A stretch of DNA of 24,003 nucleotides from a virus. How positions within the stretch are numbered: position 1 is the first letter of the stretch; every line of letters begins with the position of its first letter. Under the pieces are notes generated by a model. It ran no database searches. It was not told the origin of the DNA and saw only the letters and a program-made list of their open reading frames with translations. This document shows positions 143-23,536 of this stretch, one piece after another. A program made the position numbers and the translations under genes. The DNA lies in IMG/VR virus record IMGVR_UViG_3300032298_000386, positions 1 through 24,003 of that record; one strand, written 5' to 3'.

Positions 143-673
143 ATGAAGAAGATTATTCTAGCTGCAATGACAGCAGCTGCCATGCTTGCGTTTGCAAGTT
201 CAGCAGAAGCAAGAGTTCATTACGGTAAACGTAGTCAATATTCAGCAAATCTCGAAGAGCCAGATACAATAGGATCGATCTTCGATGGTTGGGGAGATGT
301 TACTCCTCAGCTACGTTTTAAAAACAAAAGACAGGCTCGCGAATACAGCGAGCGTAGAGAAGCAAATTATGGTTTTGATCGTGCTGATGATTCTTATTCA
401 GGATCAATCGTAGCACTTGGCCATCAGCTTCAGCATCAGGGCTTCCGTGTGTCTGAGCATCCATCTTTTGGTGGAGTACATCATGTTCACGCTCATCACT
501 CGGCACACTATTCAGGACATGCGATCGATATTAACGTTGGTCGTGGTGTTTTTGAAGCACGCTCTGGATATGCACACCATTTTGATAACCTAGCTGCTAA
601 TTTAAGATCAGAAGGTTATACAGTTCTCTGGCGTGTACCTGGTCATTATAATCATATGCACGTGCAGAAATAA
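143..673 (+). CDS. Exported M15-type peptidase (putative endolysin)
   Basis: 176 residues. The N-terminus is a classical Sec signal peptide: MKK, a hydrophobic core at 5-18, and an AEA-type cleavage site near residue 23. The C-terminal half carries the M15 zinc-peptidase signature: S120-x-H122-x2-G125-x-A127-x-D129 (SAHYSGHAID) and the terminal HMH (H171, H173). This predicts zinc ligands H122, D129 and H173. M15 enzymes cut D-Ala or L-Ala/D-Glu bonds in peptidoglycan, and several phage endolysins belong here. The ATG at 143 follows AGAAAGG with suitable spacing. A strong hairpin terminator follows at 684-712. The signal peptide implies delivery to the periplasm without a holin, or a role in the virion or host envelope. 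The His-rich stretch at 113-119 is unusual and may be extra metal binding. The fold call is solid. The role in lysis is inferred. Confidence 0.8.
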   Translation: MKKIILAAMTAAAMLAFASSAEARVHYGKRSQYSANLEEPDTIGSIFDGWGDVTPQLRFKNKRQAREYSERREANYGFDRADDSYSGSIVALGHQLQHQGFRVSEHPSFGGVHHVHAHHSAHYSGHAIDINVGRGVFEARSGYAHHFDNLAANLRSEGYTVLWRVPGHYNHMHVQK

Positions 674-683
674 TATAAGTAAG

Positions 684-712
684 AGGGATGGCAATGTCCG
701 TGCCATCCCTTT
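684..712 (+). terminator. Rho-independent terminator after the M15 peptidase gene
   Basis: AGGGATGGCA (684-693) pairs perfectly with TGCCATCCCT (701-710) around a 7-base loop and runs into TTT. It sits 11 bases after the peptidase stop codon and just before the ClpP-like gene, separating the two transcription units. The U tract is short, so termination may be partial. Confidence 0.72.
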
Positions 713-728
713 CAATATGGAGGCTAAA

Positions 729-1295
729 TTGAACATAGAAAAAGAAAAAGACGCACAAGATATTCCTGATATTGAAAGTCATCATTATTATTTGTTCAAT
801 TCAACATTCGATGCAAGTTCTACTGGTGATGCGTTAAAGTTTATTCTCGCTCGTAATCTAATGAAAAAAGACCGTCCTAAGTTTATGAAGTTTATAATTA
901 ACTCTCCTGGCGGCGAAGTTCCTTCTGCATTTGCTCTCATCGATACGATGAAGGGTTCAAAAATTCCGGTATATACATATGGACTTGGTGAAATTGCTTC
1001 TTGTGGTTTACTTACGTTTATGTCTGGAGAAAAAGGACATCGTTACATCACTAGAAATACCGCAATTCTATCCCATCAATTCTCTTGGGGATCTATGGGT
1101 AAAGAACATGAATTGATGGCATCAGTTAAGGAGTTTAACAATACAAGCCAGCGCTTAGTAGATCATTATAGAAAGTGCACTGGTCAAAACGAATCAACTA
1201 TTAAAAAGTATCTATTACCACCAGAAGATGTTTGGTTAACGCCCAGGGAGGCAATTAAATATGGCATCGCGGATCACATTGTGGATTTTTATTGA
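729..1295 (+). CDS. ClpP-like serine protease
   Basis: About 188 residues, close to bacterial ClpP (about 195). The ClpP core is visible: the FIINSPGGEVPSAFAL strand-turn-helix, the nucleophile elbow GEIASCG (Ser91), the ILSHQFSWG histidine (His116), and PEDVWLTPREAIKYGIAD with the acid Asp167. The full Ser-His-Asp triad is therefore present. ClpP forms a barrel-shaped protease fed by AAA+ unfoldases. Phage copies could redirect host proteolysis or act in head maturation, but there is no capsid gene in view. The start is uncertain. TTG at 729 has a perfect GGAGG (719-723) five bases upstream. The ATG at 717 adds four residues but overlaps that ribosome site and sits directly on the terminator. 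I prefer TTG. Confidence 0.85.
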   Translation: MNIEKEKDAQDIPDIESHHYYLFNSTFDASSTGDALKFILARNLMKKDRPKFMKFIINSPGGEVPSAFALIDTMKGSKIPVYTYGLGEIASCGLLTFMSGEKGHRYITRNTAILSHQFSWGSMGKEHELMASVKEFNNTSQRLVDHYRKCTGQNESTIKKYLLPPEDVWLTPREAIKYGIADHIVDFY

Positions 1296-2248: not shown

Positions 2249-2974
2249 ATGATTAATTTTAGCGATTATCTGAATGAGTTAAAACTTACTCTTCAATATC
2301 ATGAAGATTTAAACTCAAAGATATGGAAATCCGAAGAAAAGATTAAACCAGAAGTAAGAAAAGCTCTTCTTAAATTTGGTTATGCTTGGGCAGAGTTCGC
2401 TAAAATTCCCAAATCGATGATTCAAGATATCGTTATGACAGGTGGTAATGCTAATTTTAATTACACAAGTAAATCAGATATTGATGTTCATTTAATTGTA
2501 GATCGTAGTAAATTATTCAGCGACCCAAAATTTGTTGAAGAATATTTACAAGATAAGAAATCTCTATGGACTCTTACTCACAATGTAGATGTGTATGGTT
2601 ATCCATTAGAACCTTATGCTCAAGATGATGATATAAAATATCCAAAAAATCAAGGAGTTTATTCTTTACAAAATGATAAATGGATTGTAAAACCAATTCA
2701 TTGTGATTACGATTTTCAAAACGATCATCTACTAAAACAAAAAGTTTCTCACTATATACATGCAATAGATCATATGATCAAAAATCATATGGGAGAAGAA
2801 TCTTTTAATAATATGAAAGTTCGTTTTAAAAATATGAGAACAGCATCTTTACAACAGTATGGAGAATTTGGTAGAGAGAATCTTGTTTTCAAAGAACTCC
2901 GTAACCGTGGATACATTGAAAAGATGAATAAATATGAAACATCACTTAAAGATAAAGAGCTCTCTTTAAAATAA
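2249..2974 (+). CDS. Nucleotidyltransferase-fold protein
   Basis: 241 residues. The motif MTGGNANFNYTSKSDIDVHL (about 63-82) is the polymerase-beta nucleotidyltransferase signature: a GG-N helix turn followed by D77-x-D79, with a candidate third acidic residue in HNVDVYGYP (Asp114). Such proteins transfer nucleotides to RNA, protein or small molecules. Homologous proteins of this size are common in T4-like marine phages, where their substrate is unknown. A strong GGAGG lies ahead of the ATG at 2249. The C-terminal half is helical and charged, with no recognisable second domain. A late promoter sits directly upstream, pointing to late expression. The catalytic motif supports activity rather than a pseudoenzyme. 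Confidence 0.72.
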   Translation: MINFSDYLNELKLTLQYHEDLNSKIWKSEEKIKPEVRKALLKFGYAWAEFAKIPKSMIQDIVMTGGNANFNYTSKSDIDVHLIVDRSKLFSDPKFVEEYLQDKKSLWTLTHNVDVYGYPLEPYAQDDDIKYPKNQGVYSLQNDKWIVKPIHCDYDFQNDHLLKQKVSHYIHAIDHMIKNHMGEESFNNMKVRFKNMRTASLQQYGEFGRENLVFKELRNRGYIEKMNKYETSLKDKELSLK

Positions 2975-4061: not shown

Positions 4062-4892
4062 ATGGTCGATATCATTTGGTCTGATTTTGATCCAGAATCA
4101 GAATTTTCTATTAAACAACGTGAAGCTAAAGCAGTAAATGGTCCAGAGTATTGGCCGTCAATGCGGGAAGTGTTTAAGCATGATTGTGCAACACTCCCGC
4201 TTAATCGTTTTAGATTGTGGGCTTCTTGTCATAATGTTCCTTTTATCACACAGTATAGAACTTCTCGTTTTGTTGGCGAAGCGTTCTATCATGCTGCTCG
4301 AGATGCAGAAATCGCAGAAGCTCTAGAGGAAAATTGGATTGGTGCGCCAGAGCATATTCAAAATGCTTTGAAAGTTACTTCTGATTTTGATACATCAATG
4401 CAGCGTATTCAGGATATTGCTCATCTGTGTATTACTGGTTTCGCTAAGAAACTAAAGGATATGGAATCAATCGTTGAGATTGGCGCAGGATATGGAGACA
4501 TGTGTTCTGTTGTTCATGCTCTAGGATTCAAAGGTAAATATACTATTGTTGATATTCCAGAGACACAACCATTACAAGAATTTTATCTAGGCAAACAAGG
4601 CATTACTCCTTCATGGTCTTTCGAAGATGATAATGTAACACACTCTGATCTTGTTATTGCTACTTGGTCATTGTCAGAAACTCCAGTTGAATATCGTAAT
4701 CAATTAATGCCAAAGATTGACAAATCTAAGAATTGGCTTATACTTGCACAGTCAGAAGTTTTTGGATTAAAAGTAAATGACGATTACTTCAATAACTTTT
4801 TTATAGATAAGAATGTAGAAAAGATTCCATTGATTAGTAATGGTCTTGATGTTTGGGATGGTGGGAATATGTACTATGTCGTTAGAGAATGA
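4062..4892 (+). CDS. Putative sugar O-methyltransferase
   Basis: 276 residues. Motif I is SIVEIGAGYGDMCSV, followed by KYTIVDIPETQPLQEFYL, where the acidic Asp of motif II is followed by PE. This combination is typical of the putative sugar O-methyltransferases found in capsule and LPS clusters. A motif IV-like SDLVIATWSLSETP follows. The N-terminal third (RFRLWASCHNVPFITQYRTS) is a family-like helical region. The start at 4062 is chosen because GTGAGGAT precedes it; a longer frame from 4008 lies inside speD and lacks a ribosome site. It heads the heptose operon, and its last 17 bases overlap the next gene, so methylation of the heptose or of a glycan containing it is a reasonable inference. 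Confidence 0.75.
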   Translation: MVDIIWSDFDPESEFSIKQREAKAVNGPEYWPSMREVFKHDCATLPLNRFRLWASCHNVPFITQYRTSRFVGEAFYHAARDAEIAEALEENWIGAPEHIQNALKVTSDFDTSMQRIQDIAHLCITGFAKKLKDMESIVEIGAGYGDMCSVVHALGFKGKYTIVDIPETQPLQEFYLGKQGITPSWSFEDDNVTHSDLVIATWSLSETPVEYRNQLMPKIDKSKNWLILAQSEVFGLKVNDDYFNNFFIDKNVEKIPLISNGLDVWDGGNMYYVVRE

Positions 4893-5313
4893 TATAATTA
4901 TAGGGATAACATTTGGTTCTTTTGACTTGCTTCATGCAGGACATGTAACTATGTTGCAAGAATGCAAAAGGCAATGTGACTGGTTAATAGTAGGACTACA
5001 AACAGATCCTACTATTGACCGTCCTAAAAAGAATAAACCAGTTCAAACTTCGTTTGAACGTTGGGTGCAATTAAATTCTTTAAAATCAGTAGATGAAATA
5101 ATACCATATGACACTGAAGAAGATTTGATAAATATATTGTCTATTGTTAATATCAATATAAGATTTATTGGATCGGATTATACTAATCAATACATACATG
5201 GAAAAGATATTTGCATAAATAGAAACATCGATATAAAATATGTCGACAGACTTCATAATTATTCATCAAGCGAATTGAGAAAGAGAGTATTAGAAAATGA
5301 GTCACACAAATGA
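4876..5313 (+). CDS. Cytidylyltransferase-fold nucleotidyltransferase (HldE C-domain/TagD-like)
   Basis: 145 residues. The signature ITFGSFDLLHAGHVTML (HxGH) opens the protein, and YSSSELRKRV near the end corresponds to the (I/Y)SST-x2-R motif. Length and motifs match single-domain enzymes such as glycerol-3-phosphate cytidylyltransferase and the C-terminal ADP-heptose synthase domain of HldE. Flanked by heptose genes, its likely reaction is NTP plus heptose-1-phosphate to NDP-heptose. ADP or CDP is more likely than GDP, because GDP-heptose synthase HddC has a different fold. The start at 4876 follows GGTGGGA and overlaps the methyltransferase by 17 bases. An ATG at 4858 is possible. The base specificity cannot be read from the sequence. 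Confidence 0.78.
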   Translation: MSLENDIIIGITFGSFDLLHAGHVTMLQECKRQCDWLIVGLQTDPTIDRPKKNKPVQTSFERWVQLNSLKSVDEIIPYDTEEDLINILSIVNINIRFIGSDYTNQYIHGKDICINRNIDIKYVDRLHNYSSSELRKRVLENESHK

Positions 5314-5881
5314 TTATTTTAACGAAGTAGTCTCCATTGCTACCAATATCGATAAAGTCAAAATTCAAGTCATGGCAGAAAATCTGGCGAGAATTCGCGA
5401 CCATGCTGGTAGGGTTTTTGTGCTGGGCGTGGGTGGTTCTGCTGGTAACGCTTCCCATATGGTTAATGATCTTCGCAAACTTTGTGGGGTCGAAGCCTAC
5501 TGTCCCACCGACAACGTTCCAGAACTTACAGCTAGAACGAACGACGAAGGGTTTGACACCGTTTTCTCGGAATACCTCAGAGTAAGTAATTTAAACAAAA
5601 ACGATTGTATTTTTATTCTATCAGTTGGCGGTGGTAATAAAGATAAGAATGTATCAGTTGGTCTTGTAAAAGCAATTGATTATGCTGATTACGTTGGCGC
5701 TCATATATTCGGTATTGTTGGTAGATCAGATGGATACACAGTAGAAAAAGGTAACTGTGTGGTTGTTGTTCCTGAAGTGGCATCCAGCAGAGTTACTCCT
5801 CACTCAGAAGCATTCCAGGGTGTTGTCTGGCATTGCTTAGTTTCTAATCCTGCATTTCAGAAGAATTCTACAAAATGGTAA
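5297..5881 (+). CDS. gmhA: SIS-domain sedoheptulose-7-phosphate isomerase (GmhA-like)
   Basis: 194 residues, equal to GmhA (about 192). The phosphosugar-binding SIS motifs are present: VLGVGGSAGNASHMVNDLRK (about 42-61) and ILSVGGGNKDKNV (about 107-119). The C-terminal segment HSEAFQGVVWHCLV supplies the Glu, Gln and His that complete the active site in the family. GmhA converts sedoheptulose 7-phosphate to D-glycero-D-manno-heptose 7-phosphate, the first committed step of heptose synthesis. A transaldolase two genes downstream could provide its substrate. The gene overlaps its neighbours on both sides (17 and 7 bases). Host-like codon composition in its first 300 bases (more GC) hints at acquisition from a bacterium. 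The SIS fold is certain, and the substrate is inferred from context. Confidence 0.83.
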   Translation: MSHTNDYFNEVVSIATNIDKVKIQVMAENLARIRDHAGRVFVLGVGGSAGNASHMVNDLRKLCGVEAYCPTDNVPELTARTNDEGFDTVFSEYLRVSNLNKNDCIFILSVGGGNKDKNVSVGLVKAIDYADYVGAHIFGIVGRSDGYTVEKGNCVVVVPEVASSRVTPHSEAFQGVVWHCLVSNPAFQKNSTKW

Positions 5882-6417
5882 AGGCAGTATTTCTTGATCG
5901 TGACGGGACAATTAATAAACTTGTTCAAGGAAGAGAAAACCCTAAACATGTTTGTCCTTGGTATTACGCCGAGTTTGATTTTATTGATGGAGTGGAAAAA
6001 GCAATTAAAAAAATAAGAGGTCTTGGGTATTCTCTACACGTTGTTACCAATCAACCTGATGTTGATGATGGATATACAACCGAAGAAACTATGGAAGCTA
6101 TTCATACTTTAATTAAAACTAAATTAAATGTTGATACAATACAGGCAGCAAGAACACGTGGTACTCCTGAATATAAACCAAACTCTGGGATGCTTGATAA
6201 GATTAACAAAGAATGGATGGTATCAAAAGAACGTAGCTGGATGATTGGTGATACTTGGAAAGACGTTGTTGCTGGTCACAAAGCTGGTGTCAAGACTATA
6301 TACCTTGGTGAAATATATTCTGCTCCTCAAGAATATCTGCATATTAAGCCAGACTTTTATGCTAAAGATCTTTTGGAAGCATCATTAATAATTGAACAAC
6401 ATATAGGTGGACAATGA
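5875..6417 (+). CDS. gmhB: HAD phosphatase, heptose-1,7-bisphosphate 7-phosphatase (GmhB-like)
   Basis: 180 residues, matching GmhB/HisB-N (about 180-190). HAD motifs in order: FLDRDGT (nucleophile Asp8 and acid Asp10), HVVTNQ (motif II), YKPNSGM (motif III lysine), and MIGDTWKDVVAG (motif IV acidic pair). The squiggle region and the long capless layout fit GmhB. The cysteine/histidine zinc loop present in many GmhB proteins is not evident, since only one cysteine (CPWYY) lies in that region. Zinc binding may therefore be lost. The role inferred from context is removal of the 7-phosphate before nucleotide transfer. ATGGTAA joins its start to the isomerase stop, and its own stop overlaps the transaldolase start by four bases. 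Confidence 0.82.
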   Translation: MVKAVFLDRDGTINKLVQGRENPKHVCPWYYAEFDFIDGVEKAIKKIRGLGYSLHVVTNQPDVDDGYTTEETMEAIHTLIKTKLNVDTIQAARTRGTPEYKPNSGMLDKINKEWMVSKERSWMIGDTWKDVVAGHKAGVKTIYLGEIYSAPQEYLHIKPDFYAKDLLEASLIIEQHIGGQ

Positions 6418-7157
6418 CAATTGAAGTTTATGCAGATGGTGCTGATTATGATGGCATTTTAAAAGCAGCAGAGAATCCTAGAGTTACTGGATTTACTACC
6501 AATCCAACATTAATGAAACAAGCTGGCGTTACTAATTATGAGTTGTTTGCTCATGATATTATTAGTGCACTCAAACAACGTAGACCAGGAACAAACATCT
6601 CTCTAGAAGTATTTGCTGATGATTTCGATAGCATGTATACTCAGGCAAAAAAGATAGCCTCTTGGGGCAAAGATTATGATTATGATGTATATGTGAAGAT
6701 TCCTGTTATGAATACAAAAGGTGAACCAAGTTACGATTTGATCAAAAGACTTAACGAAGAAGGTGTAAAGGTAAATGTTACAGCTGTCTTTACTCCTAAC
6801 CAAACTCATAATATTCTAGAACATATTACTAACCCCAACGCTGATGTTATTATTTCCATTTTTGCTGGTCGTATTGCTGACACACTTAAAGACCCAGTTA
6901 ATTGGACTAAACAATGCATTAATGAAGCTATGGATAAGCCAGAAGAATTTGACAAGATTAAATTTCTTTGGGCATCTTGTAGAGAACAATATCATTTGGT
7001 TATGGCAGAAAATGCTGGTTGTCATATCATCACAATGCTCCATGATCAGATTAAGAAATTGAATTTACAAAATAAAGATTTACATAAATTCTCACAAGAA
7101 ACAGTACAAATGTTTTACAATGATGCTAGCGCATCCGGATATAGGATTGAAGTATAA
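6414..7157 (+). CDS. talC: Transaldolase family enzyme (TalC-like)
   Basis: 247 residues. It has the (beta/alpha)8 transaldolase motifs: VYADGADYD at the first strand, GFTTNPTLMKQ (26-36), ISLEVFADD, the Schiff-base lysine in VYVKIPVMN (Lys95), VNVTAVFTPNQ, and the WASCREQYH strand. The length lies between the short fructose-6-phosphate aldolase/TalC type (about 220) and TalB. Transaldolase interconverts sedoheptulose 7-phosphate and glyceraldehyde 3-phosphate with erythrose 4-phosphate and fructose 6-phosphate. Cyanophages carry talC to push host pentose phosphate flux. Here it is embedded in a heptose operon, so making sedoheptulose 7-phosphate for GmhA is the more specific inference. It overlaps the next gene by one base (TAATG). 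Confidence 0.86.
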   Translation: MTIEVYADGADYDGILKAAENPRVTGFTTNPTLMKQAGVTNYELFAHDIISALKQRRPGTNISLEVFADDFDSMYTQAKKIASWGKDYDYDVYVKIPVMNTKGEPSYDLIKRLNEEGVKVNVTAVFTPNQTHNILEHITNPNADVIISIFAGRIADTLKDPVNWTKQCINEAMDKPEEFDKIKFLWASCREQYHLVMAENAGCHIITMLHDQIKKLNLQNKDLHKFSQETVQMFYNDASASGYRIEV

Positions 7158-8161
7158 TGAAGGGATTTGAAGAAAACGAAATTTCTGCAAAGGCGCAGGG
7201 TGGTACAGAAATTGCGAAGCGTAAGTTAGCGTCAATTATTGATGAAGAATTGCTTGACAATTTTCAAATAGTTTGCTCAAGACCAAGAGAACTAGACGAA
7301 TCTAAGATTAGAATTTTTTGGTGTCATGATATGCCAGAAGATCCAGAGTCTGCTAAGTTCAGAGATACTGAATGGCGTGACAAGTTTCACAAATTCGTAT
7401 TCATTTCTAACTGGCAGTTCCAGCGTTACCAAGGAATGCATGGTATTCCTATGGACAGTAAATGTATAATTCTAGAATCTGGTATTGAACCAGCACCAGA
7501 ATCATGTTTAGAAAAAACATACGATGATAAGATTAGATTAGTTTACACCTCTACACCACAGCGTGGTCTAGAAATTCTTATTCCTGTATTCGAATTCTTA
7601 AATCAAACACAGGATGATATTCATCTAGATGTATTTTCTTCATTCAAAATTTATGGATGGGATGATTATGATAAGCAGTTCGAACCAATGTATGATGCTG
7701 TTCGTAACAATCCAAATATGACTTACCATGGATTTGTTCCTAATGCTGAACTTAAAGAACATCTAAACAAGTCTCATATCTTTGCTTATCCTTCTATATG
7801 GCCAGAGACTAGTTGTCGTGCTATGTTAGAAGCAATGTCTGCAGGTCTTGTTTGTGTGCATCCAAATCTTGGAGCTTTACCAGAAACTTCTGGCGCATTA
7901 AATGTTATGTATCAGATCGATCTTGATAAAAACATGCACGGTAGCGTTTTTGCAGGTAATCTTAATGCTGCAATAGAGCTTGTTCGACAAAAGAAACAAT
8001 ATAATATGATCGGTTTCAACAAGACATATGTTGATTCTAGATACAATATTAATTTTATTAAAAGTAAATGGGAATTTATGTTGAAAGAACTTATTAAGAA
8101 ATATCCAGACGAAGAATCTAAAAAATTCCCTCAGGCGATGTTTTCGTATAAAGCAGGTTAA
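7157..8161 (+). CDS. GT4-type (GT-B fold) glycosyltransferase
   Basis: 334 residues. The C-terminal Rossmann domain shows the GT4 pattern: IRLVYTSTPQRGLEIL (donor-domain start), YHGFVPNAELKEHL, HIFAYPSIWPETSCRAMLEA with the paired glutamates, and AGLVCVHPNLGALPE. The N-terminal domain is short and begins with AQGGTEIAKRKLA, typical of acceptor-side glycine loops, plus IFWCHDMPEDPESAKF. Retaining GT4 enzymes use NDP-sugars, including NDP-heptoses in the case of several LPS enzymes. Its place between transaldolase and the heptose kinase makes NDP-heptose the obvious donor candidate. The acceptor (host glycan, virion protein, or modified DNA) is unknown. No membrane anchor is visible, so it acts in the cytoplasm or peripherally. 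Confidence 0.83.
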   Translation: MKGFEENEISAKAQGGTEIAKRKLASIIDEELLDNFQIVCSRPRELDESKIRIFWCHDMPEDPESAKFRDTEWRDKFHKFVFISNWQFQRYQGMHGIPMDSKCIILESGIEPAPESCLEKTYDDKIRLVYTSTPQRGLEILIPVFEFLNQTQDDIHLDVFSSFKIYGWDDYDKQFEPMYDAVRNNPNMTYHGFVPNAELKEHLNKSHIFAYPSIWPETSCRAMLEAMSAGLVCVHPNLGALPETSGALNVMYQIDLDKNMHGSVFAGNLNAAIELVRQKKQYNMIGFNKTYVDSRYNINFIKSKWEFMLKELIKKYPDEESKKFPQAMFSYKAG

Positions 8162-8163
8162 AC

Positions 8164-9156
8164 ATGATTGTTACAAGAACTCCGCTACGTATTTCGTTTT
8201 TTAGTGGAGGAAGTGATATGCCATCCTTCTATGAACAGGAGGATGGCGCTGCTCTCTCCGTTACAATAAACAAATTTATATATGTGATGGCACACAAAGT
8301 TCCACACATGGGTGTTCGTTGTATGTATGATGATGTTGAAGAACAACATGACATAGAACAAATGCAGCATGCCATTACTCGAGAATCTTTAAAGTATTAT
8401 GATATTACAAAAGAAATTACAGTTGCATCTATATCAGATATCGTAACTAAAGGTTCTGGACTTGGTAGTTCCTCTGCTTTTACTGTTGGTCTTGTTAAAG
8501 CTCTCTCTACTCAAAAATATGACAACAATACACGTAAATATGTTGCAGAAATTGCATGCGAAATAGAAATGAATAAATGTGGATATCCTGTTGGTAAACA
8601 GGATCAATATGCAGCAGCTTGGGGAGGAATGAATCTATTCAAGTTCAAGAAAAACGGAGAAGTAACAGTAGACGAATTACGTTTGACTAATCCGAATGTT
8701 GAAGCTCTTGAAAATAATCTAATGCTTGTGTATTCTGGTAGAAGTAGAAATGCTAATAACATTCTTCAGAAACAACAGAAGGCGATGTTAGATGTAGAAA
8801 AGTTTAACAAAGTTAAACGCTCTAAAGACAAAGCATTCGAAGCAGTAGACTTGATCCACAAAGGTAAGATAGACGATTTCGGTAAATTACTGCATTACTC
8901 TTGGTTAGATAAAAAAGGCGTCTGCGAAGAAATTACACAAACCTATTTCGATGAGATCTATGATACAGCTATAAAAGCTGGAGCTCTTGGTGGTAAACTA
9001 CTGGGTGCTGGTGGTGGAGGATTTTTTATTTTCTACGTGCCAGAAAAATATAGAACATCTGTAGAGGGCGCTATCTCTACAAATCATACTGATTGCAGGA
9101 TCTATGATTTTCAATTTTATGGATCCGGATCTCATATGGTCTATACTAGTGGATAA
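8164..9156 (+). CDS. hddA: GHMP kinase, heptose-7-phosphate kinase (HddA-like)
   Basis: 330 residues. It starts with the sugar-kinase opening TRTPLRISFFSGGSDMP and the ITVASISD strand. It contains the ATP-binding loop KGSGLGSSSAFTVGL (96-110) and the GHMP motif 3 GGKLLGAGGGGFF near 276-288. Length and N-terminus match HddA (D-glycero-alpha-D-manno-heptose 7-phosphate kinase) better than galactokinase or mevalonate kinase. The inferred reaction is heptose 7-phosphate to the 1,7-bisphosphate, which GmhB then trims. Pairing a GHMP kinase (alpha anomer route) with an HldE-C-like nucleotidyltransferase is a mixed set compared with the two standard pathways. The gene begins two bases after the glycosyltransferase stop and is the last member of the operon. 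Confidence 0.83.
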   Translation: MIVTRTPLRISFFSGGSDMPSFYEQEDGAALSVTINKFIYVMAHKVPHMGVRCMYDDVEEQHDIEQMQHAITRESLKYYDITKEITVASISDIVTKGSGLGSSSAFTVGLVKALSTQKYDNNTRKYVAEIACEIEMNKCGYPVGKQDQYAAAWGGMNLFKFKKNGEVTVDELRLTNPNVEALENNLMLVYSGRSRNANNILQKQQKAMLDVEKFNKVKRSKDKAFEAVDLIHKGKIDDFGKLLHYSWLDKKGVCEEITQTYFDEIYDTAIKAGALGGKLLGAGGGGFFIFYVPEKYRTSVEGAISTNHTDCRIYDFQFYGSGSHMVYTSG

Positions 9157-13421: not shown

Positions 13422-14003
13422 TTACATGAATTTTTCAATATTTCTTAATTGACTATATGTATAAAAAGAAGAAATTGTATATCTTGTTCCTTCTGTTATT
13501 TTCTTTACTCCATGATGGAATGGAGCGTCGCTAGGGAATACAACAAACATACCTTTTTTTGGTTTTAATTGTTTGTTTAACTTAGTCCAGTATATCTCGC
13601 CTCCCTCGAAATTATCATTAAGATAAACCATTACAGAGAAATTTCTCCATGGGGAAATGTTTGGAGTGCCATCAGGTTCAGCGTTATCTATATGCGGAGG
13701 CAGTTCTGTTCCTGTTTTCCAACGAACTAGATCTAAAGTATCTGCATGTAGTGGTTCAGGATTTAAAGATAAATTGTTGACTATAGGAGTAGTCTTAAAG
13801 AAAATATCTTTTAAAGAAGGATATATATCTTCTTTTTTGATGACATGAAAACTGATCGTTCTATTAGACCAGTATTCTACAGGAGAAGGTTGATAATATA
13901 AATCACCTTTTTCCTGAATAAATTCCACAATAGAATTGCATATGTTATCTTCTACAAAGTTTTCTATAACATAGGGAAATTGTTCAGGTTTATAATATTG
14001 CAA
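13422..14003 (-). CDS. 2OG-Fe(II) oxygenase (prolyl-4-hydroxylase-like)
   Basis: About 193 residues. The jelly-roll iron site is complete: LPPHIDN gives His104 and Asp106, PFHHGVKKI gives His164 (or 163), and GTRYTISSF gives the 2-oxoglutarate Arg174. GGEIYW and KKGMFVVFPS are the connecting strands of the prolyl-4-hydroxylase-like family. Such proteins are frequent in marine myoviruses, and their substrates are unknown. The frame continues upstream into tRNA-Gly, which cannot be translated product. The first usable start is TTG at 14003-14001, two bases after the tRNA CCA end, with no Shine-Dalgarno. The gene may depend on processing of the tRNA transcript, or the start may be misjudged. The fold is well supported. 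Confidence 0.75.
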   Translation of the reverse strand: MQYYKPEQFPYVIENFVEDNICNSIVEFIQEKGDLYYQPSPVEYWSNRTISFHVIKKEDIYPSLKDIFFKTTPIVNNLSLNPEPLHADTLDLVRWKTGTELPPHIDNAEPDGTPNISPWRNFSVMVYLNDNFEGGEIYWTKLNKQLKPKKGMFVVFPSDAPFHHGVKKITEGTRYTISSFYTYSQLRNIEKFM

Positions 14004-14005
14004 AT

Positions 14006-14080
14006 TGGAGCGGGAGAAGGGAATCGAACCCTCGACCAACAGTTTGGAAGACTGTGACTCTACCACTGAGTTACACCCGC
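14006..14080 (-). tRNA. tRNA-Gly (TCC)
   Basis: Read on the minus strand, the 5' GCGGGTG acceptor pairs with CTCCCGC (one mismatch), then discriminator T and an encoded CCA. The anticodon stem ACAGT/ACTGT encloses CTTCCAA, giving anticodon TCC. The T-loop GGTTCGA is canonical. The 34-residue membrane protein gene ends one base upstream of its 5' end. Confidence 0.93.
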
Positions 14081-19715: not shown

Positions 19716-20588
19716 TCACTTGTTTTTTGACTTCATCATTTTCTTGCTTTTTAGCTGGCCTGGATCAGCAGTAGCCGAAGCGCCAATAGATGCAAGATCA
19801 GCAAGAGAACCACCAAATATATAAGTTCCAACATGTTGCATCTTCATCCATGGACAGAACCATGTCTTAAGATCAATTGCTTGAGCTTTCTGACAGAACC
19901 AATAATCTTCTGAAAGATAACGCTTAGAAACTGGATCAATCTCAGCTTGGAAAAACTGAAGGATCTCTCGCGAACCATCAAAATGCTCTGTACGAACATG
20001 ATCTGGTTTATATGAATATTGATCCTTATAAGCATCATAGAACTTCTGCATGGCCTTCTTTGTGACCATCATAAATCCAGTTCCAATCTCAAGAACTTCT
20101 ACTGGCTCTGCGATTGGAATAGAAGTTTGATGTCCCTTTGGATTGAAAACATAATCTCCAACGAAACGCTCTAGAACATTTGGATCATCATCAGCAACAC
20201 CCTTATCCACAGCATGTTTAATCTTTTCCCAAGAAATACACTTCTTAGGATATGGGCCACCAATAATATCATACTTCTCTTCTTCAAGAGCTTGTAACGA
20301 CATCAAAGCAATGACATCCTGAGGATTAAAACCAATGTCAGAATCAATAAACATCATGTGTTGAGATTCCGAACGCATAAACTCATCGCAACAATAGTTA
20401 CGTGCGCGAGTAATTAATGATTCGTTAAATAGATAATAAAACTGAAGAGGAATACCATACTGCGTACATAGAGCAGACAAATCTGCACAAGAACGAGCAA
20501 ACATACCTGCGCATTGCCCACCATACATTGGAGTGGCAACAAATAACTTACGCTCTCTTAGTTTTTCAATAGGGATTTTAATTTCCAT
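19716..20588 (-). CDS. GT-A glycosyltransferase-like protein
   Basis: 290 residues. The N-terminal GT-A fold reads LFVATPMYGGQCAGMFARSC, LITRARNYCCDEF and MMFIDSDIGFNPQDVIALM with a DSD metal motif (82-84). YLSEDYWFCQKAQAIDLKTW and MKMQHVGTYIFGG supply the SED acceptor motif and a terminal histidine. This is the pattern of family 2-like transferases, and similar proteins are conserved in T4-like marine phages, often near gp45. The sugar donor and acceptor are unknown. It lies in the same minus-strand run as the TET-like and TAGT-like genes, so a role in DNA sugar modification is possible. The tail is basic (LKSKKMMKSKNK). Confidence 0.72.
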   Translation of the reverse strand: MEIKIPIEKLRERKLFVATPMYGGQCAGMFARSCADLSALCTQYGIPLQFYYLFNESLITRARNYCCDEFMRSESQHMMFIDSDIGFNPQDVIALMSLQALEEEKYDIIGGPYPKKCISWEKIKHAVDKGVADDDPNVLERFVGDYVFNPKGHQTSIPIAEPVEVLEIGTGFMMVTKKAMQKFYDAYKDQYSYKPDHVRTEHFDGSREILQFFQAEIDPVSKRYLSEDYWFCQKAQAIDLKTWFCPWMKMQHVGTYIFGGSLADLASIGASATADPGQLKSKKMMKSKNK

Positions 20589-20663: not shown

Positions 20664-21005
20664 TCATTTCTTATCCTTATAATGGTCTGCGTATAGCATC
20701 ATTATAACGTAGTGAAGAACTTTTAGCAAGTCGTCTTTATTGCTGCCATGCTTTTTTCCATAGCGCCAGAGATACTTGATAGCTGTGTTTCGGAAGGTTG
20801 GCATAGAATCACCAAGAGCAAGCCACACATCGAAACATTCTATATTCTGCTCTTCAGTCATATAATGTTGCCCATATGTCTTGTCAATATAGGCATGAAA
20901 ATCAGAAATAATCTCATCTTCTTTATATTTATATTTAGGCGGAGAAATATTATCAGTGTTTGTACTTACACTAAAAGTTTTATCATTCTCAAAATTATAT
21001 GTCAT
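20664..21005 (-). CDS. DUF3310-like protein
   Basis: 113 residues. The C-terminal half FRNTAIKYLWRYGKKHGSNK and DDLLKVLHYVIMML is the helix pair found in the DUF3310/SaV-like small phage proteins, which have often been described as nucleotide-kinase-like but without firm function. The N-terminus, about 30 residues, is unique and polar. The ATG at 21005 overlaps the TAGT-like gene stop (ATGA), placing it third in the TET operon. Its stop lies 75 bases before the next gene, a gap with no clear hairpin. Membership of the modification pathway is inferred from operon position only. Confidence 0.72.
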   Translation of the reverse strand: MTYNFENDKTFSVSTNTDNISPPKYKYKEDEIISDFHAYIDKTYGQHYMTEEQNIECFDVWLALGDSMPTFRNTAIKYLWRYGKKHGSNKDDLLKVLHYVIMMLYADHYKDKK

Positions 21006-21790
21006 CCGAAAAAACTCTCCAAAGTATTACCAATTTCTTTTCGCATATCTTTCAAACGCAATTCAGCATTACCAGTAGATTCTCTTATATACATAGTACA
21101 TAAATCGGGAAATAATTCTGCAATCTTTTTAATAGATTCATAAACATATTCTTTAGTTCGGATAGTCTGCAATCCACCATCTTCTTTGTAATAGTTAGAT
21201 TTAACTGTTAGATAATCGAAACGAACTACTGCGCCGTTCTTTACATATTGGCGAATAGAATATTCATAGTCTTCGCCATGGTTTGTTACTCGATCTAGGA
21301 AAGGATCATGTTCCACAATAACACCAAACATTGAAGCAATAACATAACAAAGTTTTGTATAAACACGCTCTTTCATAAAATATGCATTAGAAGCTGCATA
21401 TATCCCAAAAGTCTTTGCTCCAACTTTCTCACATTCTTCAAACCCTGGAATAATAAATTCTTTTTCTAGATCTTCTAAACGTCCCAGTTTCTGTTCGCTG
21501 ATTTTCTTTTGAACTTCTTCAACGTCATCGTCAAACATTACTAATTTAGTTCCTTCCGGATAATACTTTTCAATAAAGTTACGTTGAGCTCCAATCGTAT
21601 GAACGCCAACAACTAACTTTTTATAAGGAGTATCCTTAAGAGATTCTTTGTACTTAGAAAGCTCTTCTTCGTCAGCAACAAAAATTGTAATTCTATTTGG
21701 ATCAATATTATAACTCTCGAGAACTTTCAGTGTTTTCTTCTTAATAGTCTCTGGTCTTTTATAAGATGGGATTGCTATACAATAATCCAT
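21002..21790 (-). CDS. TET-associated-type glycosyltransferase (TAGT-like, GT-A)
   Basis: 262 residues. It starts MDYCIAIPSYKRPETIKKKT and has VGVHTIGAQRNFIEKYYPEG, the LVMFDDDVEEV metal motif (DDD 87-89), GIYAASNAYFM, and NHGEDYEYSIRQY (acceptor motif about 170-182). This matches the glycosyltransferases found next to phage TET/JBP dioxygenases, which attach sugars to hydroxymethylated bases in DNA. The ATG at 21790 shares a base with the TET gene stop (TAATG), so the two are translated together, which strongly supports a shared pathway. The sugar donor is unknown. Other GT-A families could look similar, but the pairing with TET is decisive context. Confidence 0.78.
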   Translation of the reverse strand: MDYCIAIPSYKRPETIKKKTLKVLESYNIDPNRITIFVADEEELSKYKESLKDTPYKKLVVGVHTIGAQRNFIEKYYPEGTKLVMFDDDVEEVQKKISEQKLGRLEDLEKEFIIPGFEECEKVGAKTFGIYAASNAYFMKERVYTKLCYVIASMFGVIVEHDPFLDRVTNHGEDYEYSIRQYVKNGAVVRFDYLTVKSNYYKEDGGLQTIRTKEYVYESIKKIAELFPDLCTMYIRESTGNAELRLKDMRKEIGNTLESFFG

Positions 21791-23160
21791 TAGAAAAATC
21801 CTTCAAGGGTTGCTTCTTCAGCTTTACCGTATGGATCTGTCATACCATGAGCATGAAGATAATCATACCATTCTTCATCTTCCCACATTCCTGGCGATAC
21901 ACCATTCCATAATGGCTTCCATGATCTATGTTGTTTGTTCATACGACGCTCTTCAACATACTGTTTACGTAGAGCTTCATACTCATAAGATTTTAATTCT
22001 AACATATTCTCACGGAAATAACAAACTACAGAGATTCTTTCACAACTAGAATCGTCAGGATTATTAAGAACAATAGGGGTATTACCATGGATAATTTCAT
22101 GGTTGTTAACAAGTAATAAGTCTCCAGGGCGCACATTAACAGCAGTGCGATACTCAGGAAAAACAAGATAACCTCCAGTGTAATCTCCGGTACCTAGTAC
22201 CAATAAATTACTTAGGCCAGACTTGAAGTCTCCCGCATCTCGATGACAAGCAGTGCGGAAAGTTTTATTTACTGTAATTGTAGTAAATACTGTTTCAGGA
22301 ACAAGAAAGCGAGGATCAAGTTTATCTGCTGCTACTTTCTGATTGCCCCAACGCCATGGTAGTAATTCCTTGAAACCTCTGTTTAACGATTGTAGGAATG
22401 GATACGCAAGTTCGAATAGTTCTGGGCATTTTTCAGTATATGCTGTTGCACGCCCGTAAGGAATGCGAGGGTAACGATCGTACCAACCAGCCACACCTGA
22501 GAATACGGATTTAGCATAATTGGTAGTTGATGCCCACTTTTCTTTGACAATAGTTGCTTCTGCAAGGACTTCCTCCTTTGACTTATTAGATAATCCATCC
22601 ACCCAATTATCAAACCATCCATGATACTCTGGATATACTTTCGTTACTTCCGAACGTAACCAAACAGTTCCACGTGTCTCGTCTACTGGATTGTATCTTG
22701 GATTATCATACTTGGCACGAATGCTTTCTACAGAAGTATCATCAAACAGAGTTGCTGCATCATGTGTCAAGAAATCTAAAATCTCATGTTGATAAGGAGT
22801 GACCCAATCGCGCCCACCACGACCTTCAGTGGCAAGCATTTCTCCACGTGGACCAGCAGCAAGTCCACGATTCTGACTTTCTGTCGCAGCTTCTCTCAAT
22901 CCACGATAGGCACTATCCTGTTCTTCTTTACTGAAATAATTTTTTCGGAATTTGAATGCGATACGTAATTCATCATTACCCTTATCGCAATCTTCACAGT
23001 TTTTCGTACCACAATCAGCTTTTGTCATAACATCACAAAGCGGTGGCATATAACAATCAGTATCTTCTTCGATTACTTTATCGTAATGATTTTCGTCAAC
23101 AAACTGACCAAGTAGATGTTCACAATCAAGTTTTTCTCTAGCAACAATACGTCTTACCAT
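21790..23160 (-). CDS. TET/JBP-family DNA base dioxygenase
   Basis: 456 residues. The C-terminal oxygenase domain has TVNKTFRTACHRDAGDFKSG (His306 and Asp308, the H-x-D iron ligands), LSNLLVLG, GGYLVFPEYRTAVNVRPGDL, LLVNNHEIIHGNTPIV (His358, or 354, the distal ligand) and CERISVVCYFRENM (Arg375 for 2-oxoglutarate). This spacing matches JBP1 and phage TET enzymes, which hydroxylate thymine or 5-methylcytosine in DNA. The N-terminal region holds five cysteines near residues 36-58 (C-x5-C-x7-C-x4-C-x2-C), a possible zinc site. The start at 23160 follows GGAG and overlaps the MazG-like stop (TGATG). An ATG 12 bases earlier lacks a ribosome site. No cytosine methyltransferase is in view, so the substrate is open. 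Confidence 0.82.
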   Translation of the reverse strand: MVRRIVAREKLDCEHLLGQFVDENHYDKVIEEDTDCYMPPLCDVMTKADCGTKNCEDCDKGNDELRIAFKFRKNYFSKEEQDSAYRGLREAATESQNRGLAAGPRGEMLATEGRGGRDWVTPYQHEILDFLTHDAATLFDDTSVESIRAKYDNPRYNPVDETRGTVWLRSEVTKVYPEYHGWFDNWVDGLSNKSKEEVLAEATIVKEKWASTTNYAKSVFSGVAGWYDRYPRIPYGRATAYTEKCPELFELAYPFLQSLNRGFKELLPWRWGNQKVAADKLDPRFLVPETVFTTITVNKTFRTACHRDAGDFKSGLSNLLVLGTGDYTGGYLVFPEYRTAVNVRPGDLLLVNNHEIIHGNTPIVLNNPDDSSCERISVVCYFRENMLELKSYEYEALRKQYVEERRMNKQHRSWKPLWNGVSPGMWEDEEWYDYLHAHGMTDPYGKAEEATLEGFF

Positions 23161-23536
23161 CACTCGCTCCATAAAATAGATTTAATATTAGGTGGTCTCC
23201 ACCCATCTGGTTTTAAGATCTTACCATCAGCACGGCGAACTGGTTTTCCGTCAACTAATTTTGCCATGTTCGATTTATGGACTTCGTCGAAGACTCTATC
23301 CAAGGGAATACCGTAAGATGCAGCAGTCCCACACACAATGTAAATAATATCAGCCAACTCTTTAGCAATGTTTTCCAAGTCATTCTTACATTCGCCTTGT
23401 ATATATTCTTCGTATTCTTCTTTTAAAAGTCTATCCGCAAATCGCGTTCTGCTGGATCAGGAAACTCTGGTTTAGTTCCTATGTTTTGACCAACAGCTGT
23501 TTGAAATTCTTTCACATCTTGATACATATTAGACAT
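23160..23536 (-). pseudogene. mazG: MazG-like nucleotide pyrophosphohydrolase, frameshifted
   Basis: Two adjacent frames join into one family member. The first (ATG at 23536, with GGAG upstream) reads MSNMYQDVKEFQTAVGQN and stops at TAA 23425-23423. The second, one frame over, gives RLLKEEYEEYIQG then KELADIIYIVCGTAASYGI, the EExxE...ExxD metal motif of MazG/PRA-PH all-alpha pyrophosphatases, then VFDEVHKSNMAKLVDGKPV. Restoring one base in the T run at 23439-23441 (minus strand GATTTG) gives a continuous 125-residue protein. The span of 377 bases becomes divisible by three. It is either a true broken gene, a sequencing or assembly slip, or a programmed frameshift. No good slippery site is seen. 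An intact enzyme would clean up non-canonical NTPs or alarmones. Confidence 0.78.

Follow-up and report, generated by a model that had tools for sequence, protein, structure and literature searches.

What sugar is made by the six closely packed genes found at positions 4876–9156 of the virus record IMGVR_UViG_3300032298_000386 from IMG/VR? The window that we analysed is a 24,003-nucleotide (nt) stretch of this record and holds genes for a clamp-loader subunit, PhoH and RNase H; judged from the sequence the source virus is a T4-like phage, a freshwater-type virus of bacteria. A first-pass annotation had read the six genes as one unit that encodes a complete nucleoside diphosphate (NDP)-heptose route. 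The six genes, their close spacing, the kinds of enzyme and the succession of chemical steps were borne out by the reading frames, the family matches and the catalytic residues. The heptose label, however, turned out to be possible but not the best supported. With little more than even confidence we favour the reading that the six enzymes assemble an aldose of eight carbons in activated form, by a cytidine diphosphate (CDP)-octose route, and transfer it.

All six open reading frames lie on the plus strand, in the order HxGH nucleotidyltransferase, SIS isomerase, HAD phosphatase, transaldolase, GT4 glycosyltransferase and GHMP kinase (families CTP_transf_like, SIS_2, HAD-IIIA, TAL_FSA, glycosyltransferase group 1 and GHMP kinase; Table 1). 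The successive junctions are overlaps of 17, 7, 4 and 1 nt followed by a 2-nt gap. Queries with the kinase, the isomerase and the transaldolase found 58, 148 and 25 viral stretches, respectively, and the six-gene cassette is present in about 50 distinct IMG/VR phage lineages, in most of them with the same gene order. All six genes are full length in 35 of the 53 distinct loci that bear the isomerase, many of the others being contig fragments; in this set each junction is an overlap or gap of at most 10 nt in 36–46 of 41–48 cases. Exceptions to the gene order are few (L100 has no detectable HAD gene and L116 is rearranged), and the cassette is usually preceded by a glutaredoxin gene and followed by the RNase H and PhoH genes. 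The catalytic residues show no or hardly any variation throughout these loci, from which it follows that the cassette genes are under selection. An arrangement that is not due to chance, and a single transcription-unit-like operon, are supported by the compared loci. In a promoter scan promoter-like sites were no more frequent than in shuffled sequences. The isomerase had zero matches among 50,697 GenBank phage records, so that no cultured phage that carries it came to light, and in the cultured relatives nearest by RNase H the cassette is not found at that position.

The isomerase had been taken for GmhA. In Burkholderia pseudomallei GmhA the zinc ligands are H64, E68, Q175 and H183, reported to be conserved in all orthologues (PMC5705639). 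In an alignment including LmbN, the isomerase of the lincomycin octose pathway, and 15 GmhA proteins, by which the last two GmhA ligands were placed, the equivalent residues of the phage protein are H54, D58, E171 and H179. The pair D and E occupies two of the metal positions in 14/14 phage, 15/15 bacterial-cluster and 5/5 LmbN-type proteins, whereas E and Q are found there in 15/15 GmhA proteins. An SV[GH]GG motif and an insertion are also common to the LmbN, cluster and phage isomerases and are not found in GmhA. In the tree (all trees were quick builds with Shimodaira–Hasegawa-like approximate likelihood ratio support only and no outgroup root) the phage proteins form one clade (support 99) within a bacterial clade that excludes all 15 GmhA proteins (support 100). 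For the isomerase this is the kind of grouping that the first-pass annotation had itself named as counting against its heptose reading. Against TIGR00441 (GmhA) the isomerase scores 40 bits and does not reach the cutoff of 209. Its AlphaFold model has the SIS fold, with a predicted local distance difference test value (pLDDT) of 85.8, and the nearest structures are the GmhA proteins of E. coli and B. pseudomallei. By its H/D/E/H residues, its motif with insertion and its place apart from GmhA the enzyme is of the LmbN type, and activity on octulose 8-phosphate is predicted for it. The annotated phosphoheptose isomerases of Caulobacter phage Cr30 (L001) and cyanophage SynMITS9220M01 (L003) likewise carry D and E, not the E and Q of GmhA, and the heptose annotation is therefore doubtful there too.

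Two further names, GmhB for the phosphatase and HddA-like for the kinase, were not supported at the subfamily level either. The phosphatase is a HAD-IIIA enzyme with all catalytic aspartates present, and its nearest solved structure is GmhB. It has the TNQPD motif of LmbK, not TNQ[SA]G: TNQPD or SNQPD occurs in 13/13 phage, 17/17 bacterial-cluster (three of them SNQPD) and 5/5 LmbK proteins, the motif [TS]NQ[SA]G in 15/15 GmhB proteins. Both GmhB models score below cutoff (TIGR00213, 69.8 against 149.6 bits; NF006506, 80.2 against 178 bits), and LmbK of Streptomyces lincolnensis nests inside the bacterial-cluster phosphatases in the tree. The motif, together with a position on the LmbK/bacterial-cluster side of the tree (support 86–94), argues with moderate strength for a phosphatase of the LmbK type. 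The kinase belongs, by its motifs GSGLGSSS, QD and GAGGGG, to the GHMP sugar 1-kinase superfamily. Its profile matched four HddA-type structures in the PDB at 178–194 bits and all else below 58 bits. Against NF049969 (HddA) it scores 150 bits at a cutoff of 600, and the scores for this model are bimodal, 411–419 bits for two canonical-cluster kinases and 120–183 for the rest. In the tree the kinase is not part of the HddA clade; adjacent to that clade are the kinases of the cyanophages Bellamy and SynMITS9220M01.

The transaldolase is of the TIGR02134 type, with K95 in 52/52 and F126 in 50/52 homologues. We take Phe126 to stand at the position of Phe178 in TalB and Tyr131 in FSA; an FSA-type aldolase is ruled out by Phe126 and the family score. 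For the nucleotidyltransferase the best PDB profile matches, and nearest solved structures, were Pcyt2 (88.7 bits) and TagD (54.9 bits), ethanolamine-phosphate and glycerol-3-phosphate cytidylyltransferases, and HldE was absent from these matches. Its HxGH motif, an RP.KNKP loop and an Arg at −5 of an ST[ST]-like motif are those of the HxGH cytidylyltransferase superfamily, and HxGH with an Arg at −5 of the SSS/SST motif was found in 48/48 nucleotidyltransferases. An Arg at this position is reported to let HENases use cytidine or uridine triphosphate (CTP or UTP) (PMC11461863). The score against TIGR02199, the HldE C-terminal domain, is 84.7 bits and does not reach the cutoff of 181.5. The enzyme probably activates a sugar 1-phosphate with CTP. 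The glycosyltransferase has a GT-B fold, and a PDB sequence search with it gave no match. That it is a cassette-specific gene was weakened as a proposal: the GT4 gene is older than the cassette, because the same gene occurs in the same order (glutaredoxin, glycosyltransferase, RNase H, PhoH) in Sinorhizobium and Rhizobium phages that have no cassette. The phage set looks like a shared SIS–HAD–transaldolase module to which a GHMP kinase and a stand-alone CTP-type enzyme have been added, around an older GT4 gene.

This module is widespread in bacteria. A genome scan with the isomerase gave 80 loci, 52–61% identical, from Alpha-, Beta- and Gammaproteobacteria, Verrucomicrobia and further groups, with the phosphatase nearby in 66 and the transaldolase in 65 of them. 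Clusters of a first type comprise epimerase, UGD, SDR, MocA, GHMP kinase, NTP transferase, SIS, HAD and transaldolase genes and hold counterparts of eight lincomycin octose genes (lmbP, O, N, K, R, Z, L and M); loci of Methyloglobulus morosus and Rhizobium tubonense are examples. Those of a second type comprise SIS, HAD and transaldolase genes, epimerases, an HldE-like HxGH–PfkB fusion, MocA and UGD; the HldE-like protein of L149, L157, L168, L170 and L180 has the domain order reversed, HxGH first and PfkB second. In genomes G003, G004 and G006 a second, weaker SIS match was present, GmhA-like in G003, and the only TIGR02134 match was the cluster copy. The same SIS and GHMP genes were seen in the actinobacterial loci L262, L263 and L264, the last two also with HAD and transaldolase genes. 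L264 is compact (GHMP–SIS–HAD–transaldolase, no MocA or UGD) and resembles the phage set; the isomerase frame of L263 has 540 amino acids and is possibly a fusion. L259, our lincomycin reference, is the real cluster: its glycosyltransferase and the LmbT structure 8IXP match without a difference over 436 residues, and its genes run K / L M N Z P O S R Q T V, as described in PMC12945683.

The lincomycin octose pathway of S. lincolnensis (LmbR, LmbN, LmbP, LmbK, LmbO) likewise combines a transaldolase, an H/D/E/H SIS isomerase, a GHMP 1-kinase and a TNQPD phosphatase, and its nucleotidyltransferase and GT-B transferase steps also have counterparts in the phage; LmbK, as mentioned, nests with the bacterial cassette homologues. 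In contrast, the phage transaldolase is of the TIGR02134 and not the LmbR type, a CTP-like HxGH enzyme stands in place of the LmbO-type guanosine triphosphate (GTP) enzyme, and the phage operon has no counterparts of lmbL, lmbM, lmbZ and lmbS. For the chemistry of LmbR and LmbN there are reports in papers that cite Sasaki 2012 (PMC5854111, PMC4351081).

Gene order, families, catalytic residues and subfamily placement are the basis of the route that we propose, in which the length of the chain, the nucleotide, the use of the donor by GT4 and the acceptor are predictions. The transaldolase would move a dihydroxyacetone unit from fructose 6-phosphate or sedoheptulose 7-phosphate to ribose 5-phosphate, giving octulose 8-phosphate, which the SIS isomerase would turn into octose 8-phosphate. 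The GHMP kinase would form octose 1,8-bisphosphate and the HAD enzyme would remove the 8-phosphate. The resulting octose 1-phosphate would be activated by the HxGH enzyme, probably with CTP, and GT4 would transfer the octose to an acceptor, for which the cell envelope and DNA are candidates. The general shape from ketose to aldose, bisphosphate, 1-phosphate, NDP-sugar and transfer, as already proposed in the first-pass annotation, is supported by the predicted enzyme set, and an octose route would be expected to have a transaldolase of its own.

Several observations weigh against an octose. A sequence does not tell the length of the carbon chain. Within the isomerase clade LmbN is only distantly related to the others, and the D/E pair, being present also in the SIS proteins of Cr30 and of a cyanophage, sets a protein apart from GmhA but does not by itself point to an octose. 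In the tree, three further LmbK homologues of the lincosamide type are placed on the side of GmhB, with modest support. The kinase scores nearer to HddA (194 bits) than to LmbP (143 bits) and does not stand with LmbP in the tree, where it groups weakly with other sugar kinases. Since LmbR is TIGR00875-type and separated by a long branch from the TIGR02134-type phage and cluster enzymes, the transaldolase step is analogous at best. The bacterial clusters of the second type use an HldE-like fusion, and an octose product of the bacterial clusters is itself predicted.

The best-surviving alternative is NDP-D-glycero-D-manno-heptose, made from fructose 6-phosphate and erythrose 4-phosphate via sedoheptulose 7-phosphate and GmhA-, HddA-, GmhB- and HldC/HENase-like steps, the phage transaldolase raising the supply of sedoheptulose 7-phosphate. 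We regard it as possible, though well short of even. The best curated names are indeed GmhA, GmhB, HddA and HldE C-domain, the PDB matches are to heptose enzymes for the kinase, the isomerase and the phosphatase, the modelled isomerase fold appears closest to GmhA, and viral enzymes making adenosine diphosphate (ADP)-heptose have been reported (Tang 2024, as cited in PMC11461863). However, every score lies far under the curated cutoff, and the characterised octose enzymes LmbN, LmbK and LmbP score the same sub-threshold heptose labels; family names alone can therefore not separate C7 from C8, and we did not accept the curated names as they stand. Furthermore, the phage isomerase departs from GmhA at two of the four metal ligands, and the trees place isomerase and kinase apart from the GmhA and HddA clades. 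Sedoheptulose 7-phosphate is already a normal metabolite, and the two canonical guanosine diphosphate (GDP)-heptose clusters checked, L310 and L311 (GmhB–HddC–GmhA–HddA), showed no transaldolase gene in the 20 kb looked at. These clusters share reaction types, protein superfamilies and overall order of chemistry with the phage operon, which in contrast lacks the H/E/Q/H of GmhA, the GG.QD of HddA and the TNQ[SA]G of GmhB and has an HxGH enzyme instead of any HddC-type gene. A canonical set of GmhA, HddA, GmhB and HddC is not present, the first three not being matched at the subfamily level. The ADP-heptose systems (HldE/HENase, with viral members; Tang et al. 2024) resemble the phage set in HxGH and in the Arg at −5 of an STT-like motif, as in CTP/UTP-using HENases. 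They differ in that the phage kinase is GHMP-type and not PfkB-type, in that the PDB profile matches of its HxGH enzyme are CTP enzymes and not HldE, and in that a phosphatase is present. The complete set was called unusual for a phage, and it is so under the heptose as under the octose reading, because no viral phosphatase for NDP-heptose synthesis was reported by Tang et al. (PMC11461863). In phage Cr30 the glycosyltransferase is 41% and the kinase about 37–41% identical, the SIS protein has D/E and a TagD-like gene lies elsewhere, but the regions examined hold no transaldolase and no HAD phosphatase and the genes do not form one operon.

It is unlikely that the product is another higher or isomeric sugar, neither D-glycero-D-manno-heptose nor a lincosamide-type octose, built by the transaldolase on a different aldose phosphate such as arabinose 5-phosphate. 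The weak grouping of the kinase with kinases of clusters holding branched- or deoxy-sugar genes and the difference in transaldolase subfamily from LmbR would fit such a sugar, whereas the recurrence of the SIS–HAD–transaldolase module with an lmb-like gene set across many bacterial phyla speaks against it. That the enzymes mainly shift the pentose-phosphate metabolism of the host, the role proposed for TalC of cyanophages, with the linked sugar genes incidental, is very improbable: transaldolases are common in cyanophages, but this one is of another subfamily (about 28% identity to TalC, by which an origin from TalC is ruled out) and is locked by its 4-nt and 1-nt overlaps into a conserved nucleotide-sugar operon.

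For the acceptor of the predicted octose, envelope decoration (receptor masking, superinfection exclusion) is our default assumption. The window also encodes a TET/JBP 2-oxoglutarate (2OG) oxygenase followed directly by a TET-associated glycosyltransferase (Table 1), by their families a DNA hypermodification pair, which makes DNA a possible acceptor alongside the envelope. TET, common in related T4-like phages, was found in 13/18 cassette contigs and in three relatives outside the cassette group. As Melnitz, DLP_6 and Cr30 have TET without the cassette, TET neither proves nor excludes a DNA acceptor, and its co-occurrence was rejected as proof. A T4-type origin of 5-hydroxymethylcytosine via dCMP hydroxymethylase was rejected as well, no PF00303 match being found in eight long related contigs. 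Phage RB69 is an example of a T4-like phage that puts an unusual sugar, arabinose, on hydroxymethylcytosine by a GT-B transferase and may supply the donor by a module of its own (PMC6024577); there the sugar is a pentose and DNA the demonstrated acceptor, while for our operon DNA is a candidate acceptor. That CDP-octose would glycosylate 5-hydroxymethylcytosine made by the phage's own TET/JBP oxygenase, an eight-carbon DNA sugar serving as anti-restriction armour, is a speculation to which we give little credence.

An O-methyltransferase-like gene shares 17 nt with the first cassette gene; it is an optional tailoring gene, present in 17/53 related loci by clustering of the upstream genes. A ClpP-like protease gene upstream of the operon is kept in many related contigs, and a protein with a weak NTP_transf_2 match is often encoded shortly before the cassette. 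The window also holds a gene for a second 2OG-Fe(II) oxygenase and one for a glycosyltransferase with weak resemblance to Anp1.

Table 1. Positions of the cassette genes and of other features in the 24,003-nt window
Feature	Coordinates	Strand	Basis or remark
ClpP-like protease	633–1295	+	
Weak NTP_transf_2 protein	2249–2974	+	PHROG 36119
NanM-like putative sugar O-methyltransferase	4062–4892	+	TIGR04371 42.1 bits, cutoff 44; presumed start ATG 4062
HxGH nucleotidyltransferase, CTP-enzyme-like, predicted sugar-1-phosphate cytidylyltransferase	4876–5313	+	CTP_transf_like; PDB profile matches; HxGH
SIS-domain ketose/aldose phosphate isomerase, LmbN-type	5297–5881	+	H54, D58, E171, H179
HAD-IIIA phosphatase, LmbK/GmhB-like	5875–6417	+	TNQPD motif; no zinc-loop cysteines
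Transaldolase, TIGR02134-type	6414–7157	+	Schiff-base Lys95; Phe126 at presumed TalB Phe178 position
GT4-type (GT-B fold) glycosyltransferase	7157–8161	+	Predates cassette in related phages
GHMP sugar 1-kinase, HddA/LmbP superfamily	8164–9156	+	Family and motif matches
Second 2OG-Fe(II) oxygenase	13422–14066	−	PF13640
Weak Anp1-like glycosyltransferase	19716–20588	−	
TET-associated glycosyltransferase	21002–21790	−	PF20691 49.8 bits
TET/JBP 2OG oxygenase	21790–23172	−	PF12851 81.9 bits

To our knowledge octose biosynthesis is experimentally known only from the lincosamide antibiotics, and our searches of open-access papers turned up none that describes octose genes in a phage. If the octose reading is true, octose chemistry would be present in many environmental phages and in polysaccharide-type clusters of several bacterial phyla that are now annotated as "heptose". 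Two residue patterns, D/E as opposed to E/Q in the isomerase and TNQPD as opposed to TNQ[SA]G in the phosphatase, would then give a simple means to flag such mis-annotated operons. The finding would add a sugar class to the nucleotide sugars encoded by phages, and it would raise the question which surface, or DNA, the phage decorates.

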